Under the pieces are notes generated by a model. It did not search any database. It had not been told where the DNA came from and saw only the letters and a program-made list of their open reading frames with translations. A stretch of DNA of 8,115 nt from the NCBI GenBank assembly GCA_030622125.1, contig JAUXGM010000098.1, positions 1 through 8,115 of the forward strand, in the 5' to 3' direction. This document shows, piece by piece, positions 484 to 8,115 of this stretch. A program made the position numbers and the translations under genes. Within the stretch, counting starts at the first letter, position 1, and every line of letters begins with the position of its first letter. Origin of the DNA: a bacterium. GTDB taxonomy: Bacteria; AUK180.

Positions 484-1149
484 TTACTTTTTGAATGTAA
501 AGATTGGTGAAATGATAAGAAGAATAATCCCAATTATATAATAAAAAATAGGAAATTTCTGCGGAATGTAACCCGATGAGATTTTTACGGCATTTTCATA
601 GGTTAGATTTTTCAAAAAATCATTTGAAAGTAAAAATTTAGCAAAATCAACTGTAAATGATATGTAAATAAATAAACATCCAAGAAGAAATACCAAAAGA
701 AATTCAAGATTTAGATCATTGGATTTATTAATTAATAGATATCCCATAGAAATAAAAATTATGCTTACTAAAATGGGAGCCCATACGGGTCCAATCCAGT
801 TTACTGGAATTAAAAATAGTAAATCCCAATCAGCAAAACTTTGAGGCCAATTTAAAAAAATCTTTAAAAATAGATAATAAAATATATCCCATATACCAAA
901 TAACATAAAAAAATATGCAAACCATTCCTTTCTATTTTTTGCTATTAAATATGATGAAGAAAACAATAGTAACATAGTTGCAAATTCTCGGCAATACTCT
1001 ACCTTAAATATTGAATAAGGGATAAAAGAATTTAGAGGAAAAGAAAACCCATGAGAATAAAAATTATATCGGATATAAATAACAACCGCTGCTTCAATAA
1101 AAGCAAATGAAATACCCAGAAACCATATCATTACATTTTTTTTCATCAT
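484..1149 (-). CDS. Conserved six-helix membrane protein of unknown function
   Basis: A 221-residue integral membrane protein and the last gene of the operon. Hydrophobic segments lie near residues 7-26, 52-70, 76-98, 112-140, 148-168 and 199-217. Charged residues sit in or beside the helices: E19, E51, R54, D88 and D108. The most distinctive stretch is FGIWDIFYY (84-92), followed by NWP and WDLLFLIPVNWIGPVWAP (108-125). I associate this pattern with uncharacterised bacterial membrane proteins that have no assigned role. AAAGAGAT at 1154-1161 lies a few bases upstream; the first or second of two adjacent Met codons could be the start. The gene begins 18 bases after the acyltransferase stop, so it is almost certainly co-transcribed. 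A supporting role in lipid handling is possible from context only. Confidence 0.85.
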   Translation of the reverse strand: MMKKNVMIWFLGISFAFIEAAVVIYIRYNFYSHGFSFPLNSFIPYSIFKVEYCREFATMLLLFSSSYLIAKNRKEWFAYFFMLFGIWDIFYYLFLKIFLNWPQSFADWDLLFLIPVNWIGPVWAPILVSIIFISMGYLLINKSNDLNLEFLLVFLLGCLFIYISFTVDFAKFLLSNDFLKNLTYENAVKISSGYIPQKFPIFYYIIGIILLIISPIFTFKK

Positions 1150-1167
1150 AAATATCTCTTTACATTT

Positions 1168-1839
1168 TCAAAAAAGTGCTTTTGCTTCCGTTGAAAGATC
1201 ATAAATCTTTTCCATTACCATGTTTGCAAGCTCTTGATAATCGTCCATTGATAATTCTTTTTCATAATATTCATTAAGATATATAGGTTCTCCGATAACA
1301 CAACCATAATTTGCGCGAAATTTCGGACTATGCACATAATCCGTTTTTTTTAATTTTTTATAGTATATTTTTCTGATTATAATATCTTCATCATCTAACC
1401 AGACAGCCATTGGGATTATCGGCACCTTCTTTCCCAGAGCAAGCCGAATTACACCCTTTTTAGCCCTTGCTTTTCCTTGTTCGGCTATTTTTTTACCTTC
1501 GGGTGCAATGAGAACTGCTTCTTTTTTATCAAGAATTTTAAGGCATTCAGTTATTGTTTTATGTGAATCCGCACCTCTGATTATCTTTATTTGTCGTGTC
1601 AAACTGAATATTATATTGGGAATAAGGAGTGTCCATATCTCCTCATTTATCATTGTGTGAACAAAATCCGGTGCTACGATCAATGCGGGAAATGCATCGT
1701 ATTCGGTCGGATGATTTACGGCATATATCTTTGGACCTTTTGGAATTTTTGCCTTAAATTTGTATTTAAAATTCAGATAGAAAAAGAAAAGAATCCTTAA
1801 TGTTAAGTTTCCAATCTTATAAAAAATCTTGTTTATCAT
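1168..1839 (-). CDS. PlsC-type 1-acyl-glycerol-phosphate acyltransferase family protein
   Basis: A 223-residue member of the PlsC/LPLAT family, which transfers a fatty acyl chain to lysophosphatidate or a related acceptor at the cytoplasmic face of the inner membrane. The catalytic H-x4-D motif is NHPTEYD, with H43 and D48. A block II-like IIRGADSHKT follows at about 87-95. Block III is APEGKK (112-117), with Lys where PlsC proteins usually have Thr after PEG. Block IV is VPIIPMAVW (139-147). A hydrophobic N-terminus at about 12-22 may anchor it. The ribosome site GAGAGAAG (1847-1854) touches the stop codon of the barrel gene, 14 bases upstream. The true acceptor is unknown. Because it sits in a transporter operon it may modify transported cargo rather than serve housekeeping phospholipid synthesis. 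Its TGA stop supports the standard code. Confidence 0.9.
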   Translation of the reverse strand: MINKIFYKIGNLTLRILFFFYLNFKYKFKAKIPKGPKIYAVNHPTEYDAFPALIVAPDFVHTMINEEIWTLLIPNIIFSLTRQIKIIRGADSHKTITECLKILDKKEAVLIAPEGKKIAEQGKARAKKGVIRLALGKKVPIIPMAVWLDDEDIIIRKIYYKKLKKTDYVHSPKFRANYGCVIGEPIYLNEYYEKELSMDDYQELANMVMEKIYDLSTEAKALF

Positions 1840-1853
1840 TTTTTTTCTTCTCT

Positions 1854-3176
1854 CTAAAAGCTATATTTAAACTTAATATATATCTCATCATTCTTTTTTA
1901 CCTTACCGAAATTCGTATTGTCTTCTCCGTTAATAAAATACGCCCCTAAATTTATTTCACCATTATCCATTGGTATATAGGAAATTTCAGGCAAGATCAT
2001 TATTGCCGAATTATCTTTTATTTTATTAAAATCTTTAATCTCCGATCCGAGTCCGATTTTGATCTTTAAATCATCGTCAAAAAACTTCTTTTCCATACCC
2101 AATATAATATAATCTTCTAAATTATCTTCTTCCCTTTCATGAATAAATCCGTGGAGATATTGCCCGTTAATATATAAACCGTTTTTAAATGTATAATCCA
2201 TACCGACAACATACTTATAGTATGGTTTACTGTCAAGAGCAACCGTGGTCTCGGTATAAGTATTCATTGTAGTTATCATAATTACTTTTTCCGGAATAAA
2301 ACAGGCTGCCTCACCCCAGACACCGATCTTACCGATCTCACCGGACATATCAGCACCAATTACCTGCATTTTCGGGTAGATCATTTCAACATTGACATCT
2401 ATTGCCGTAGGGGAAACGGAAGTTATTATCACATTATTTATTAAGGGTATATCATCTCTGCCGTTGAAATAACTCAGAGAAAGATCATAATTAAACAGAT
2501 TTCCCGAAAATTTTACGGCAAACATTGAGCTTTCTTCAAATGACCTTTTAGGTAAAATAACGGTATCCGAATAGGATTGTAGTATCAAACCTTCGGGAAC
2601 GGGTAATGATGAAAAAAAGGCAGAAGCCCATTCATCCGAAGGAAGCACAGCGGGTTTAAAAATAGGGATAACAACACCGACTAATGAATAATCTCCCAGG
2701 TAATAGGTTAATTTAACAGAATTAGAACCCAATTTTCTTCCAAAATCCATAATATCTTCCAAATCATCGGGATTGAGATTGTCGGTGGGATTTAACTTAT
2801 CCGCAGTTCCCCATGCAATTCTTTGCTTTCCAACCCTTATATCAAGATTTTTTAAAACAAACTTGTAAAAATCTATATAGGTTTCTCTGATATTGATCAT
2901 AAGGGGATTGATACTTTCGGTATCTTGCAGATCCGTAGAATTTAATATATTGGGAAACCCAATACTTTTAAATTCTGTTTCACTGTAAATATGTCCGTTC
3001 CCGATGTCTAAATTCAATTTTGATATTAATTGAATTTCATTCCACGAAAATGTATTATCTTCCAATCTGAATCTGTTATCCGTAAAAATATTTCCGCTTA
3101 AATTTATCTCGGAATACGAAAAAGTAAAAAATAACAGTATAAAGACAATTACCGCACAAATTTTATCTTTTCTCAT
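1854..3176 (-). CDS. Outer-membrane beta-barrel protein, DUF1302-like
   Basis: A 440-residue exported protein starting at the ATG at 3176, chosen because AGGAG (3186-3190) lies nine bases upstream and the product then begins with a classic signal peptide (MRKDK, a hydrophobic core, and likely cleavage after FSYS at about residue 22). A frame extending to 3230 would overlap the previous gene and spoil the signal. The mature part shows alternating-residue strands typical of a barrel and ends KFKYSF, with the terminal Phe recognised by the BAM assembly machinery. The best family clue is GKQRIAWGTADKLNPTD (116-132), followed by NLNPDD (133-138), which resembles DUF1302 barrels encoded beside RND/MMPL transporters. 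A later ADMSGEIGKIGVWGEAA stretch (275-291) also fits. Transported compound unknown; other porin-like families remain possible. Confidence 0.85.
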   Translation of the reverse strand: MRKDKICAVIVFILLFFTFSYSEINLSGNIFTDNRFRLEDNTFSWNEIQLISKLNLDIGNGHIYSETEFKSIGFPNILNSTDLQDTESINPLMINIRETYIDFYKFVLKNLDIRVGKQRIAWGTADKLNPTDNLNPDDLEDIMDFGRKLGSNSVKLTYYLGDYSLVGVVIPIFKPAVLPSDEWASAFFSSLPVPEGLILQSYSDTVILPKRSFEESSMFAVKFSGNLFNYDLSLSYFNGRDDIPLINNVIITSVSPTAIDVNVEMIYPKMQVIGADMSGEIGKIGVWGEAACFIPEKVIMITTMNTYTETTVALDSKPYYKYVVGMDYTFKNGLYINGQYLHGFIHEREEDNLEDYIILGMEKKFFDDDLKIKIGLGSEIKDFNKIKDNSAIMILPEISYIPMDNGEINLGAYFINGEDNTNFGKVKKNDEIYIKFKYSF

Positions 3177-3185
3177 AATAATCTG

Positions 3186-3190
3186 CTCCT
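3186..3190 (-). promoter_or_regulatory. Ribosome binding site fixing the barrel-gene start
   Basis: AGGAG on the minus strand lies nine bases before the ATG at 3176 and overlaps the TAA stop (3192-3190) of the LolA-like gene, giving TAAGGAG. It selects the start that yields a proper signal peptide and suggests translation is handed from one gene to the next. Confidence 0.8.
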
Positions 3191-3966
3191 TATCTTCTTT
3201 TAAGGTAACGTTTTGAAAATAATTCGTCACCCAAATTTTGATCGAACTTAATTTCGAGGATTATCATTTTTGTTTTATGCTCTTTATCCAAATCATGCAT
3301 CAGTGCTTGTTTTGCGATCCAATATTTTCCTTCTTTTTCAATCTTACTGTTTTCCATAACCTTTACGAGTTTACCCTCTTTTGAATAGAATTCAATTTTT
3401 ACAGGATAGAAATTATCTTTTCTTACAGCCATTATCAGTTTTGAATATTCTTTTTTTATACCTTCTTTTGGTGCCAATTCCAACTCATATAACTGCTCTT
3501 TACTTTGATCATTTGATTTCAATAATTTGGCATCATAAATTTCGGAATAATTTGTTGAGGCAATATCATCATAAGTAAAATCAGTGCCTGCAAAATTGGT
3601 ATTTTTCACATGTGATGCAATTCTTCTTATTTTCCTGAAAGCAGGTAAATAGAGATACATCATATCGTTCGGCAGGTTTAAAAAAGCAAGTCCTTTTACA
3701 TCCGCGGGAGAGAGAAATTTAACCATTCTTTTATCACTTCCTTTCTGCCATATCTTTACTTTACGAACTTTTTCATCTCCCTTTTTGTCAATTAAGATCA
3801 TCTCTACAGTGATCTCCTGATCTTTCGGAGCATTAATAACCTCATCAACATTTTTTAAAATCTGTTGTGCCGTGAACTCTTGAGATTGGGAATTATTTCC
3901 ATCTGCAAAAGCAAAACCCGAAATCAGCAAAACGAACATTAGGAATAAAATTTTAATTCTTTCCAT
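3190..3966 (-). CDS. Periplasmic LolA-like outer membrane lipoprotein-sorting protein
   Basis: A 258-residue exported protein starting at the ATG at 3966, preceded by a near-ideal GGAGGT site. The signal peptide is MERIK plus a hydrophobic core with likely cleavage after AFA at residue 21. There is no lipobox Cys, so the mature protein should be soluble in the periplasm. The hallmark of the family annotated 'outer membrane lipoprotein-sorting protein' (LolA/LppX-like fold) is seen in YLYLPAFRKIRRIA (104-117) and NFAGTDFTYDDI (124-135), and the C-terminus FSKRYLKRR also fits. Such proteins are expected to bind lipid in a half-barrel groove. Its start overlaps the end of the transporter gene by 14 bases and it ends 13 bases before the barrel gene, matching a periplasmic shuttle between the two. 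It is not classical LolA, and the cargo may not be lipoprotein. Confidence 0.9.
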   Translation of the reverse strand: MERIKILFLMFVLLISGFAFADGNNSQSQEFTAQQILKNVDEVINAPKDQEITVEMILIDKKGDEKVRKVKIWQKGSDKRMVKFLSPADVKGLAFLNLPNDMMYLYLPAFRKIRRIASHVKNTNFAGTDFTYDDIASTNYSEIYDAKLLKSNDQSKEQLYELELAPKEGIKKEYSKLIMAVRKDNFYPVKIEFYSKEGKLVKVMENSKIEKEGKYWIAKQALMHDLDKEHKTKMIILEIKFDQNLGDELFSKRYLKRR

Positions 3967-6907
3967 TTTTTCTACCTCCATTTTTAATTTTTTTACCAAC
4001 TTTATTTGCCATATTTCTGGCAAATCTCTTAAAATTCCCTACAAAACTTGCATGAGTAACAATGATAATGGCGGGAACTACCGTAATTGCACCAAGGGCA
4101 CTTGTAATCATTGTTAGAGCCATCAACCAACCGAATTGCCTTATGGGAACAATACTTCCGAAAAGCAAGACCAAAAATCCCATGGAAACCGACAGGGCAT
4201 TGATTAGAATTGCCACACCGGTGGTTTCCAATGTCTTTTTAAGTGCATTATGAACAGAATTATTCTGTTTGAATTCAACTTTAAAACGGGATATGAAATG
4301 GATCGTATAATCAATCCCAATTCCAATGGCAACACTTCCTATTAAAACGGTAATAATATCCAGAGCAATCCCGAAAAGGGACATAACCCCGAAATTTATC
4401 AAAATGGTAAGTACAATCGGAGTTATACCGGTTAAGCCCCCGGCAAAGGATCTCAATTGTATGGTCAGAAGAATAAAGATCAAAAAAAGTGATATGACCA
4501 AACTTTTAATTTGACTTTTAATGATCTGTCTGTCAAGTTTTTTATAGATTATAGGAAGTCCTGTTTGTTTTACCAAAAAGACTTTAAAGGATCTATTTTG
4601 ATCATTATTTCTGAATACGGTTCTGTATTCATCAGGAGAAAGAGCAATATTATTCTCATTTATTCTCCATAAAATATCATTTATTTCTTTATTGAATTTT
4701 TTGTTATTTTTGATCTCTTTCGGGAATAGATTTTCAATTTCATTAAAAATTATTTCTACTTTTTCTTTTTTTAAGGTATCATCAATAATCGATTCGATTG
4801 CTTCGGCAGCAAGTTCTATCCCCTCGGTATCTTCGGTGATATCTTTGCTTAAATTATTATTTAAAATTTTTATTATATCATTTTTGGAAAAAGCATCTTT
4901 TTGTAATCTTTCCCCAATCTTTAAAACAATGCCGGCTATTTTTTCGGAAGAATTTATTTCAATATCTGCTTCGTCCCCGGAAAAATATTTTTTTATTTCT
5001 TCCTGTATAAGAGAAATAACGGAGGAATCGGACAGTGAATTACTCTCTCTATTTTCCGATATAATACCCCTGCATTTTTCCGTATCAAATTTATAGTCGG
5101 GCAATCTGATCGAAATATTCGTTTTGACAGCGTTTACCGTATTTGAAATTTTCTTATCTTCCAAAATATTTCTTTGACTTTCTTTAAGATCATTTAAATT
5201 TACTTCAATAAATCTGCTTTTAACATTATTTTTTATATAATTATTTATTTTATCGACAAGATGAACTATTTTTGTTGTATCAATTGTTCCCAAATTTGCC
5301 TGGATCATTGCAACCGTTTTATCCCCATTTACCATTTGATCTAAAATATCCTGCCCTTCCAAAAAGAACCATAGATTTGAAACACCTTCTTTTGTATCGG
5401 GGATTATATATCTTCCGTTCATTACATCATTCATTTCAGAGATCAGATCTGCAATAGAATTCGGATTATGTATGTCGGGTAAGCTTTTTAGGTAGTTTTC
5501 GATCTTCATCATTTCTTTTAGAACATAAGGATCTTTAATATCTCCTTTTACCTGTATCTGTATTGGAATTGAACCTCCGAATTTTTTTTGCATCATTCTT
5601 TCCGTAATTCTGATCTCACTGCTTTTATCAAAATATTCCATCATATTAACTTCGCTGTGGATATGAAACAGACCGATTATACACAGTAATACGATAAGTA
5701 TTGTTAAAAAAATAATAGTTTTTTCATTTTTTAATACAAAATCAGACAAATGATCCATAAATTTAGTAATTGATTTATTTTCAATGTTCTTATCTTTATT
5801 TTTTCTTTCTTTTACTTTAAGAAATGAAAGCACAGCAGGAATAAATGTCAAAGAAATAATTAGGGCAAAAAGAATACCCAACGACATAAAGATACCGAAA
5901 CTCTTTATGACGGTAATATAAGCGGTAAGAAAAGAAAGAAAACCGATCGCAGTGGTTACCCCTGCCAATACAATGGGTATACCGACCTCTTTTAATGCAA
6001 GGGCAATTTTTTCCTTTTTGGTTCTTTCGTCCCTAATGTCCTCATAATACTTGGTCATTATATGAATACCGTAAGCGCTTCCTACGGCAATAAGAAGTAC
6101 GGGAATTGCATTGGATACGAGGTCCATTGCATTACCCGTAATAATCATAAAACCAAATACCCAAACGGTACTTAAAAATCCGGCTGACAGCGGCAAAATT
6201 ACGCCCCTAAAATTTTTAAAACCGATAAAAAGCACTATAACGATCAAAATAATTACCAGTGGAACCAATTTTTTTACCTGAGAAATAATAATACTTTGAA
6301 TTAAAACCATTTGAAACGGAACACCCGCATAGTATGTTTTTTCAGGTCCGGGATATTTTCCCACAATATTTTTCAGCCTTTTTGCAACGGCTACCTTATT
6401 TACATCATCTTTAACCCGACAGATTATTATCGTTACTTCACCGTTTGACGAAATGAGATTTCCGACATACATATCTTTGGAAAGGGTGTATTTTCTTAAT
6501 ATTTCAAGGATTTCTTTATTTTTAGGAATATTGTCCGAATCAATAAGATCATTTATCTCGAGACCACCCTCCACTTTTTTTATATCAATAATATTGGTTA
6601 AACTTATCACCCTGGAGATTCCTTTATCCTTTTCAAATTCATCAGTTAAATTTTTTATTTTTGTCAATGTTTTATAATTAAAAATATTATTATCTTCTAT
6701 AGCAATTATCGCAAGAGAATTACCTCCAAACATTTGCCCTGTTTGATTAAAAAGTTTGACTGCCTCATCACTCTTTGGCAAATAGCTTAATATATCACTG
6801 TTTATTTGAATATTCTTCAGTTGAAAGCCCAAAAACAGGGTAATCCCGATGGTTAATATAATTATCAATAAACGAAATTTAATAACAAATTCTGAAAACT
6901 TTTTCAT
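3953..6907 (-). CDS. RND/MMPL-family transporter with enlarged second periplasmic loop
   Basis: A 984-residue inner-membrane RND-superfamily transporter of the MMPL/HAE3 type. The twelve-helix plan is visible: TM1 at 11-29, a periplasmic loop (30-213), TM2-6 between 214 and 361, TM7 at 396-414, a second loop (415-800), and TM8-12 between 801 and 950. The halves share sequence around TM4 (VGSAYGIH, 275-282) and TM10 (IGIDYTIH, 863-870). TM10 has the Asp-Tyr pair (D866, Y867) used for proton coupling in this family; TM4 has Ala at the matching Asp position. The second loop is about 200 residues longer than the first, because of a charged, helical-looking insert near 570-770. The C-terminus is a short Lys-rich tail. 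The start is an ATGA overlap with the TetR stop, with only a weak ribosome site, implying translational coupling. Likely cargo is a lipid or hydrophobic compound, inferred from the neighbours. Confidence 0.93.
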   Translation of the reverse strand: MKKFSEFVIKFRLLIIILTIGITLFLGFQLKNIQINSDILSYLPKSDEAVKLFNQTGQMFGGNSLAIIAIEDNNIFNYKTLTKIKNLTDEFEKDKGISRVISLTNIIDIKKVEGGLEINDLIDSDNIPKNKEILEILRKYTLSKDMYVGNLISSNGEVTIIICRVKDDVNKVAVAKRLKNIVGKYPGPEKTYYAGVPFQMVLIQSIIISQVKKLVPLVIILIVIVLFIGFKNFRGVILPLSAGFLSTVWVFGFMIITGNAMDLVSNAIPVLLIAVGSAYGIHIMTKYYEDIRDERTKKEKIALALKEVGIPIVLAGVTTAIGFLSFLTAYITVIKSFGIFMSLGILFALIISLTFIPAVLSFLKVKERKNKDKNIENKSITKFMDHLSDFVLKNEKTIIFLTILIVLLCIIGLFHIHSEVNMMEYFDKSSEIRITERMMQKKFGGSIPIQIQVKGDIKDPYVLKEMMKIENYLKSLPDIHNPNSIADLISEMNDVMNGRYIIPDTKEGVSNLWFFLEGQDILDQMVNGDKTVAMIQANLGTIDTTKIVHLVDKINNYIKNNVKSRFIEVNLNDLKESQRNILEDKKISNTVNAVKTNISIRLPDYKFDTEKCRGIISENRESNSLSDSSVISLIQEEIKKYFSGDEADIEINSSEKIAGIVLKIGERLQKDAFSKNDIIKILNNNLSKDITEDTEGIELAAEAIESIIDDTLKKEKVEIIFNEIENLFPKEIKNNKKFNKEINDILWRINENNIALSPDEYRTVFRNNDQNRSFKVFLVKQTGLPIIYKKLDRQIIKSQIKSLVISLFLIFILLTIQLRSFAGGLTGITPIVLTILINFGVMSLFGIALDIITVLIGSVAIGIGIDYTIHFISRFKVEFKQNNSVHNALKKTLETTGVAILINALSVSMGFLVLLFGSIVPIRQFGWLMALTMITSALGAITVVPAIIIVTHASFVGNFKRFARNMANKVGKKIKNGGRKNGKN
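3974..3979 (-). promoter_or_regulatory. Ribosome binding site fixing the LolA-like gene start
   Basis: GGAGGT on the minus strand lies seven bases before the ATG at 3966. It lies inside the last codons of the transporter gene. It decides the start in favour of MERIK, the residue from which a clean signal peptide begins, over in-frame Met codons 15 and 57 bases further upstream. Confidence 0.85.
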
Positions 6908-7479
6908 CTTTTTACTATCCCGTTAAAAAGAATATCTAATAATTTATCAATATTCTCTTGTATCTTCGGCAAAGATATTTCTGTTGACCAGGGATACTCT
7001 AACCCTTTCAAAGCAGAGATAATGGCAAATGATGTCAATTCGATATCTTCAATTGAAAATAGGTTTTTATTATTACCATCTATTAAGATGGTCCGAATTG
7101 TTTTTATCTCCTGCTGGAAATTCTTTTCCCGTATCCTTTCTATAAAGGCATAGTGATCAAGATATTCTTCCGTTAATGCGCTATGAATATTTGCAAGTTC
7201 ATTCAGATATTTCATTCTTGTCGTTATGTATGCTTTGAGTTTTTCTTTCGGTGTATCTTCCTTATCTATCGCTTCATTGATTTTTTGTGCCAAAAATCGG
7301 TTTTCTTTTTCAACAACCTCTCTATAGATATCTTCCTTACTTTTAAAATAATGATAAAGGGTAGCCTTTCCCATTCTCGCTGCTTTTGCAATTTCATCAA
7401 CGGTTGTTTTAATCAGCCCGTACCTTGAAAATATCTTTTGTGATATGTTCGTAATAATTGTTTTTTTGTTTTCATTCAC
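6904..7479 (-). CDS. TetR-family transcriptional regulator
   Basis: A 191-residue TetR/AcrR-type repressor and the first gene of the operon. The N-terminal DNA-binding domain is clear: ISQKIFSRYGLIKTTVDEIA (12-31), then AKAARMGKATLYHYFKSKED (31-50), the usual helix-turn-helix with the LYHYFKSKE signature. The remaining 140 or so residues form the variable ligand-binding and dimer domain, in which I see no diagnostic motif. The start is GTG (7479-7477), supported by AGGAGT six bases upstream; no in-frame ATG lies near. It stops with TGA overlapping the transporter ATG. The family usually represses its own operon and neighbouring transporter genes until a small ligand binds. Here the consensus promoter and a possible operator just upstream fit autoregulation. 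The ligand may be the transported compound or a lipid precursor, which is inference. Confidence 0.95.
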   Translation of the reverse strand: MNENKKTIITNISQKIFSRYGLIKTTVDEIAKAARMGKATLYHYFKSKEDIYREVVEKENRFLAQKINEAIDKEDTPKEKLKAYITTRMKYLNELANIHSALTEEYLDHYAFIERIREKNFQQEIKTIRTILIDGNNKNLFSIEDIELTSFAIISALKGLEYPWSTEISLPKIQENIDKLLDILFNGIVKR

Positions 7480-7485
7480 AAAAAC

Positions 7486-7491
7486 ACTCCT
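7486..7491 (-). promoter_or_regulatory. Ribosome binding site supporting the GTG start of tetR
   Basis: AGGAGT on the minus strand lies six bases before GTG at 7479. It supports a non-ATG start that keeps the whole N-terminal helix of the TetR DNA-binding domain. Confidence 0.8.
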
Positions 7492-7503
7492 ATAAAATTC
7501 TCG

Positions 7504-7521
7504 ACCAAAATCGTTTTTCGT
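7504..7521. promoter_or_regulatory. Possible TetR operator (imperfect palindrome over the start site)
   Basis: ACCAAAA, four central bases, then TTTTCGT: six of seven positions pair. It begins three bases downstream of the -10 box and covers the expected transcription start, where a repressor would block initiation. The arms are mostly A and T, so chance is a real alternative. Confidence 0.3.
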
Positions 7522-7524
7522 TCC

Positions 7525-7553
7525 ATTATAGTATTTTTATTCTTCCGTGTCAA
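7525..7553 (-). promoter_or_regulatory. Perfect-consensus sigma70 promoter of the tetR-transporter operon
   Basis: On the minus strand TTGACA (7553-7548) and TATAAT (7530-7525) are separated by exactly 17 bases (7547-7531). Both boxes match the consensus at every base. Transcription should start near 7518, leaving a leader of about 39 bases before the GTG of tetR. There is no extended -10 TG. An unregulated promoter this strong would be costly ahead of a membrane transporter, so repression by the adjacent TetR is likely. Confidence 0.85.
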
Positions 7554-7579
7554 ATTTTTTTACATATTCGTAATTATTT

Positions 7580-8115
7580 TTATTTACATTTTGAATTTAA
7601 ATATTTTTCTTTCCAGATCGGTTCCGATAATTTCTTAAGATCATCATCAAATTTTACCATTCTTTCATAGTATTCATTATCTTTTAATGATTGGTCTGCA
7701 AATTCATCAATCGGCTTAATATTGTCTTTTTCAATCAGTATGTTTCTTCTAAAATTATCATAATGATCACGAATTGAACAGGGAGCAAGCCAATTTTTAA
7801 TATTTCCATCCTTTTTTCCATAGCCATAATCTTTTTGCCATTTTCTACCTCTTACAAAATAATCGGTGTTTAAAGCATCCGCTATGCTTTTACCGTTTTT
7901 ATATAGATCATATAAATTATCTTTTGCATAAGGAATAAAAACACAAGGAGAAATATTACCATTCCAATCAACATAGAAATAACCACCCTTTTTTGCATAA
8001 GCGATACAACCTTCTGATGCCCCTGCTGAATTCCAAAAATCCCCAATAAAATAATGCTTTTCAAAAAGTAATTTTTCCCATTTCTTGTATAAGTTAATCC
8101 TATCCTCTGCCGAAA
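7580..8115 (-). CDS. Radical SAM/SPASM-like protein, C-terminal part (5' end outside window)
   Basis: The frame is open from the right edge to a TAA at 7582-7580, giving 177 C-terminal residues (numbered here from the edge). The section with EGCIAYAKKGG (35-44), YVDWNGNISPCVFIPYAKDN (47-66) and the later WLAPCS (108-113) matches the C-terminal cysteine region of radical SAM enzymes with a SPASM or twitch domain, which binds an auxiliary iron-sulfur cluster; C36, C57 and C112 are likely ligands. The radical SAM core with its CxxxCxxC motif would lie beyond the edge, so it is not seen. The substrate cannot be named. The gene reads in the same direction as the operon, but the strong promoter in the 100-base gap suggests separate control. 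No clear terminator follows it, so some read-through is possible. Confidence 0.75.
   Translation of the reverse strand, partial: SAEDRINLYKKWEKLLFEKHYFIGDFWNSAGASEGCIAYAKKGGYFYVDWNGNISPCVFIPYAKDNLYDLYKNGKSIADALNTDYFVRGRKWQKDYGYGKKDGNIKNWLAPCSIRDHYDNFRRNILIEKDNIKPIDEFADQSLKDNEYYERMVKFDDDLKKLSEPIWKEKYLNSKCK

Follow-up and report, generated by a model that had tools for sequence, protein, structure and literature searches.

The window, by which we mean the whole stretch of DNA analysed, is an entire 8,115-bp contig of a draft genome (G000; 2.08 Mb, 96% complete). Six genes occupy its minus strand between 484 and 7479, in the order TetR, RND/MMPL transporter, LolA-like protein, DUF1302-like barrel, PlsC and membrane protein. 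Listed in the direction of transcription, the features are:

7580..8115, minus strand: partial radical-SAM/SPASM gene, truncated by the contig end (family match)
7525..7553, minus strand: predicted sigma-70-type promoter TTGACA-17-TATAAT, 5' of the operon (consensus match)
6904..7479, minus strand: TetR-family regulator, first gene of the operon, GTG start (PF00440, TetR_N, 50.7 bits)
3953..6907, minus strand: RND/MMPL (HAE3-like) inner-membrane transporter, 984 aa (MMPL, 171.8 bits versus a cut-off of 20.5)
4577..5197, minus strand: helical insert in the second periplasmic domain of the RND protein, residues ~571-777, 207 aa
3190..3966, minus strand: LolA-like periplasmic carrier, 258 aa, with a predicted signal peptide (PF17131, 192.6 bits versus 30)
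1854..3176, minus strand: predicted DUF1302-like outer-membrane beta-barrel, 440 aa, with a signal peptide (DUF1302, 27.7 versus 23.2, a weak match)
1168..1839, minus strand: PlsC-type acyltransferase, 223 aa, with the HX4D motif NHPTEYD (PF01553, 61.7 bits)
484..1149, minus strand: membrane protein, 221 aa, about five predicted TM segments, no family

Adjacent genes overlap by 4 and 14 bp or are separated by gaps of 13, 14 and 18 bp. Five of the six proteins match a Pfam family above the curated cut-off (DUF1302 barely), while the membrane protein has no family. ORF coordinates and Pfam matches thus confirm what an earlier sequence-only reading had described as six tightly packed genes with overlaps or gaps of at most 18 bases. 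The promoter is the sole 12/12 sigma-70 consensus in the window and lies between the partial radical-SAM gene, which ends at 7580, and TetR. Its position just upstream of TetR makes it plausible that all six genes are transcribed together, with the radical-SAM gene probably belonging to a separate transcript. A search for a TetR operator in 7440-7620 returned imperfect inverted repeats at most, none of them assignable; the intrinsic terminators predicted in the window are no more numerous than expected (4 versus 4.5), and none is confident. The partial radical-SAM gene is 63% and 38% identical to the radical-SAM genes of related cassettes in genomes G005 and G007, respectively, the former belonging to the same class as G000.

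The best NCBIfam resemblance of the regulator is to the fatty-acid regulator FadR (48.5 versus a cut-off of 200). The transporter belongs to the MMPL/RND superfamily both by its MMPL profile and by its structure model (pLDDT 86.5), which has 12 TM segments and two periplasmic domains; the Sterol-sensing and Patched profiles also exceed their cut-offs. Its top NCBIfam family is HAE3 (TIGR00921), although the score of 295.5 bits is below the curated 351.9. Foldseek placed MmpL5/MmpL4 nearest to the model, followed by HpnN and NPC1L1. In the ranking of a second structural aligner, NCR1 leads and multidrug RNDs follow closely at similar Z; hence, the RND fold by itself is no proof of a lipid cargo. 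The insert in the second periplasmic domain is missing from shorter homologues of 755-785 aa in a sequence comparison. The model shows it as a helical domain that includes a single long helix (694-727) and no clear long coiled-coil hairpin. The long form is found in 46 of the 66 RND homologues on our tree, where it has changed at least five times. Mycobacterial MmpL3/4/5/10, which work with LppX or MmpS and have lipid cargo, share the RND fold (MmpL4/5 being closest) and a helical extension of the second periplasmic domain, but the window is of the diderm type, with a LolA-type carrier and a barrel, and its insert is a helical domain. In MmpL10, a coiled-coil extension drives trimerisation (PMC12183618). 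The insert of the window's transporter may likewise promote oligomerisation, or it may extend toward the carrier.

The carrier gene starts at an ATG that follows GGAGG (the mechanical ORF begins at 4023), and the barrel gene at an ATG after AAGGAGC (the mechanical ORF reaches 3230). Judged from the residues, the N-termini of both proteins look like signal peptides, and the barrel C-terminus ...YIKFKYSF resembles that of an outer-membrane protein. By profile and by model, the carrier belongs to PF17131 (LolA_like) and has the LolA/LolB fold. Its structure model (pLDDT 90.6, 50 sequences) is closest to Porphyromonas gingivalis LolA3 (PGN0947, 9tp6; Z 29.4, 29% identity), 4z48 (29.3), 3bk5 (29.1) and 3buu (25.1), versus a Z of 16 and below for LolB/LolA structures and 13-15 for LolA. 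The two carriers share a fold and are distant in sequence: the window's protein scores 26.5 bits with the NCBIfam LolA3 profile (NF053579), under the curated 83, although the LolA3 fold is the closest. No match to the canonical LolA family was found among Pfam and NCBIfam profiles at E up to 0.1. LolA3 is reported to have a hydrophobic groove and to bind LolB scarcely at all; the arginine of LolA and the leucine of LolB are both missing from it (PMC13103446). The LolA-like character ascribed to the protein earlier therefore stands as far as its modelled fold is concerned, and a hydrophobic groove has been described in its nearest solved relative.

For the last two genes, the closest comparison comes from another genome of the same family (G001, locus L195), in which a PlsC 71% identical to the window's follows immediately after the barrel. 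The membrane protein has invariant residues E19, R27, E51, R54, E55, W87, D88 and D109. We considered it as a species-specific bystander with its closest orthologues elsewhere and dropped this idea, as it lies near the core in other phyla. Copies of both genes are found in further settings. G000 has a second PlsC (C80:10711-11379, L102), 90% identical to the window's at the protein level and a recent duplication, which adjoins a nitronate-monooxygenase/FabK-like gene. A paralogue of the membrane protein (53%; L103, on C27 of G000) lies one gene from a YghO-like N-acyltransferase. At L236, PlsC and the membrane protein are adjacent as in the window and are followed by an LpxL-like acyltransferase.

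No relative emerged from a scan that used the RND sequence alone, whereas an alignment of the carrier, run against 84,980 species genomes, retrieved 286; we analysed the best 80 of these. These loci were picked by carrier similarity, and the core counts are conditional on that choice: by tblastn, the barrel is present in 73, the RND protein in 72 and TetR in 52 of the 80 loci, and ORF clustering (window counted) gives 79 for the carrier, 74 for the barrel, 67 for the RND protein and 53 for TetR. The TetR-RND-LolA-like-barrel order is also seen among the near relatives of the window. The 80 loci span at least 20 named groups, mostly candidate phyla, and include Cloacimonadota, Zixiibacteriota, WOR-3, KSB1, Aminicenantes, Calditrichota, Ignavibacteriota, Spirochaetota and Bacteroidota, among others. 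Core genes are thus very often adjacent in other genomes, as the sequence-only reading would require, and because tens of genomes share this gene order of the core, the operon is no chance array. The same reading had taken all six genes for one complete set. Here only the four-gene core proved conserved; PlsC and the membrane protein are recurrent but optional.

On the RND tree, the window's transporter groups with that of a WOR-3 locus (L161; SH-aLRT 100) and not with those of L195, from the same family, or L202, from the same class. Such a grouping could mean that the core was exchanged horizontally or that the copies are old paralogues. L161 is without PlsC, unlike L195. Within one family, two distinct core lineages are thus each found with the same type of PlsC, suggesting that PlsC belongs to the cassette functionally. 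At L161, a FabH-like gene sits between TetR and RND (L161:384-1403). A second, divergent RND-LolA-like-barrel set is present in G000 itself (C181:205-4889, L112).

To describe what accompanies the core, we clustered the ORFs of the 80 loci without bias and named the families from profile matches. The families recurring near the core are patatin (30 loci), radical SAM (17/80), phasin (13), PlsC (12) and the membrane protein (11, the window being counted for these last two), FabH (11), glycosyltransferase (11), UbiB (10), YghO-like GNAT (10), DUF3108 (8) and the serine-palmitoyltransferase-like protein SPT (6). Nearly all lie on the strand of the cassette, and they are largely lipid-linked. The presence of FabH in 11 loci suggests a specialised acyl chain. 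One KSB1 cassette (L034) has a lipid kinase and a methyltransferase like phthiotriol dimycocerosate/fatty-acid O-methyltransferases.

Background rates were obtained from whole-genome searches of the source genomes. With in-locus counts read by eye from match lists, and with draft genomes counted as independent though they are not, 8 of 21 copies of the membrane protein lie in a cassette locus (0.10 expected), as do 12 of 75 copies of GNAT (0.40 expected) and 5 of 45 copies of SPT (0.24 expected). For PlsC, among the matches listed in 50 genomes there are about 110 copies, about 10 of them in cassette loci (again read by eye). Labels change on the RND tree at least 4 times for SPT, 9 for GNAT and 8 each for the membrane protein and PlsC, indicating that these associations were gained or lost several times.

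The sequence-only reading had seen none of the synthesis genes for sterols, hopanoids or aryl polyenes near the operon. For the window itself the absence of synthesis genes stands, but the cassettes of its relatives carry lipid-synthesis genes. SPT comes directly after the barrel in three Aminicenantes loci (L182, L186, L187), adjoins the carrier, barrel or pump in L168, L192, L172 and L219, and lies inside the cluster of L194. Moreover, an epimerase-SPT-YghO-like GNAT operon lies on contig 37 of G000, apart from the window's contig, and suggests a specific candidate for the cargo. The GNAT of this operon shares 33% identity with YghO of E. coli BL21 over the full length (34% for the GNAT within the G005 cassette), its SPT-like protein shares 40% with E. 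coli spt (585.6 bits, below the NCBIfam cut-off of 640), and its epimerase shares 21% with the E. coli epimerase. The three may correspond to the Spt, YghO/CerS-type N-acyltransferase and CerR-type epimerase of the bacterial ceramide pathway. The yghO gene is a homologue of Caulobacter CC_1154, which is needed for dihydroceramide synthesis (PMC9386255). In an Elusimicrobia genome (G076, C12:51432-54599), the membrane protein, GNAT and SPT are adjacent to one another away from the cassette locus, an arrangement that supports a shared pathway for the three.

The link is not a general rule. Most cassettes have no SPT or GNAT nearby. A close SPT is found in 39 of 50 cassette genomes and lacking in about 11 (counted by eye), and searches with SPT, GNAT and the membrane protein found none of them in the genome of the nearest relative L161 (G060, WOR-3). 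An SPT lipid, therefore, does not qualify as the cargo of every cassette. According to two 2024 papers, no transporter is known that brings bacterial sphingolipids from the inner membrane to the outer one (PMC11324152, PMC11087976), and our literature search found no paper tying such pumps or cassettes to sphingolipids, which is not proof of absence. Genes for sphingolipid synthesis do have transport genes as neighbours in E. coli BL21 and Caulobacter, where a second LptF/LptG set lies beside spt (PMC11324152); in E. coli BL21 the spt cluster adjoins the extra lptF/lptG genes. That set is of the ABC/Lpt type, a machine unrelated to the RND-carrier-barrel cassette.

From the observed gene order, families, folds and conservation, and from the enrichment of certain lipid genes near the cassette, we infer, with rather better than even confidence, that the operon encodes a lipid-trafficking cassette that is powered by its RND protein, regulated by TetR and equipped with lipid-tailoring enzymes of its own. 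A trans-envelope route for hydrophobes or lipids through the RND protein, the LolA-like protein and the barrel had been suggested from the sequence, and fold matches and conserved adjacency make it the best reading. The RND protein would take up the lipid and hand it to the carrier, which would shield its acyl chains across the periplasm, and once at the outer membrane the lipid would be received by the DUF1302-like barrel. Making or remodelling the cargo may be the role of PlsC, and perhaps of the membrane protein too. This cargo is most probably an acylated membrane lipid that the cell itself produces. Among specific candidates, we tentatively put first an SPT/N-acyltransferase-derived (sphingolipid-type) lipid.

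The architecture itself is already known from AmeABCD, a Pseudomonas putida set and a P. gingivalis operon, and these systems also supply the main alternatives. AmeABCD of Castellaniella defragrans resembles the window in uniting an RND protein (HAE3-type there, HAE3-like here), a LolA-superfamily periplasmic protein and a DUF1302 outer-membrane protein in one cassette, and its deletion reduces monoterpene tolerance (PMC6394551). In P. gingivalis, TetR, MMPL and LolA-like genes form an operon whose members are induced together and rank with the most strongly induced genes when hemin or iron is low (PMC10470040, PMC10434189); its partners differ from those of the window, and its carrier may be PGN0947. 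Hence, one could expect detoxifying efflux, a role proposed for AmeABCD, of hydrophobes that come from outside or from metabolism (fatty acids, terpenes, solvents, drugs), with TetR as the sensor and with PlsC and the membrane protein adapting the membrane. The window does have the AmeABCD-type combination, a DUF1302 barrel and a LolA-superfamily protein beside an HAE3-like RND protein. However, its carrier is of the PF17131 type, it has TetR, PlsC and the membrane protein and is without monoterpene genes, and no AmeC-like second periplasmic protein (COG4447) is encoded within 484-7479. Lipid-synthesis and lipid-remodelling genes recur in the cassettes, and the groups that carry them appear not to be known for such substrates. 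We therefore regard efflux as unlikely, though it is the strongest of the alternatives.

Transport could also run inward, with extracellular or outer-membrane lipids or fatty acids being taken up and then recycled by the patatin lipase and PlsC, both of which recur near the core. To our knowledge, export is the direction of RND pumps with known substrates, and co-location with SPT and FabH fits lipid making. On the other hand, the P. putida set PP_0765/PP_0766/PP_2018/PP_2019 likewise comprises a DUF1302 barrel, a DUF1329 LolA-like protein and an RND protein, which are predicted to interact, and PP_0765 (DUF1302) and PP_0766 (DUF1329) are required for growth on Tween 20 (PMC10866462). That set differs from the window in being split over two loci and in having an extra periplasmic protein, besides its tie to Tween 20 growth. 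Overall, a retrograde route seems improbable to us.

The LolA fold and the Pfam family name might suggest a lipoprotein carrier, and thus an operon that sorts a special class of lipoproteins; lipoproteins were among the cargoes that the sequence-only reading had allowed. Yet the window proteins have no canonical LolA or LolC/D/E family match in Pfam and NCBIfam, the closest solved relative is LolA3 with its scant LolB binding, and loss of lolA3 in Flavobacterium johnsoniae gives no gliding or secretion phenotype (PMC11885536). We thus disfavour this cargo and consider it very unlikely. Least credible of all, and rejected here, is a hopanoid, sterol or aryl-polyene exporter: the RND protein resembles the HpnN and BstA profiles weakly (116.2 versus a cut-off of 1100 and 47.2 versus 1400, respectively), none of the synthesis genes for these compounds lies near the operon, and a search of the 96% complete draft G000 for the squalene/hopene-cyclase domain PF13243 gave no match, which further weakens hopanoids and sterols.

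Returning to the lipid-trafficking cassette, three features are new compared with the known systems: this subfamily of carriers is widely distributed and has lipid-synthesis genes as neighbours, PlsC and the membrane protein occur as optional partners, and the RND protein has a long form. We propose, as a possibility held slightly more loosely than the choice of cargo, that the cassette performs inner-to-outer transport of sphingolipid-type lipids in the FCB group and other candidate phyla by a machine unlike the Lpt-type one that has been proposed for Caulobacter, and that the membrane protein is a new enzyme or transporter of this pathway. With its invariant acidic and basic residues, the membrane protein is likely a new component of a lipid pathway. 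The cassette also gives context to LolA3/PF17131 proteins, whose structures have been solved and whose cargo is not assigned. Finally, the repeated combination of RND protein, carrier and barrel with SPT/ceramide-synthase-like neighbours provides a concrete, deletable candidate for a sphingolipid transporter outside Proteobacteria.
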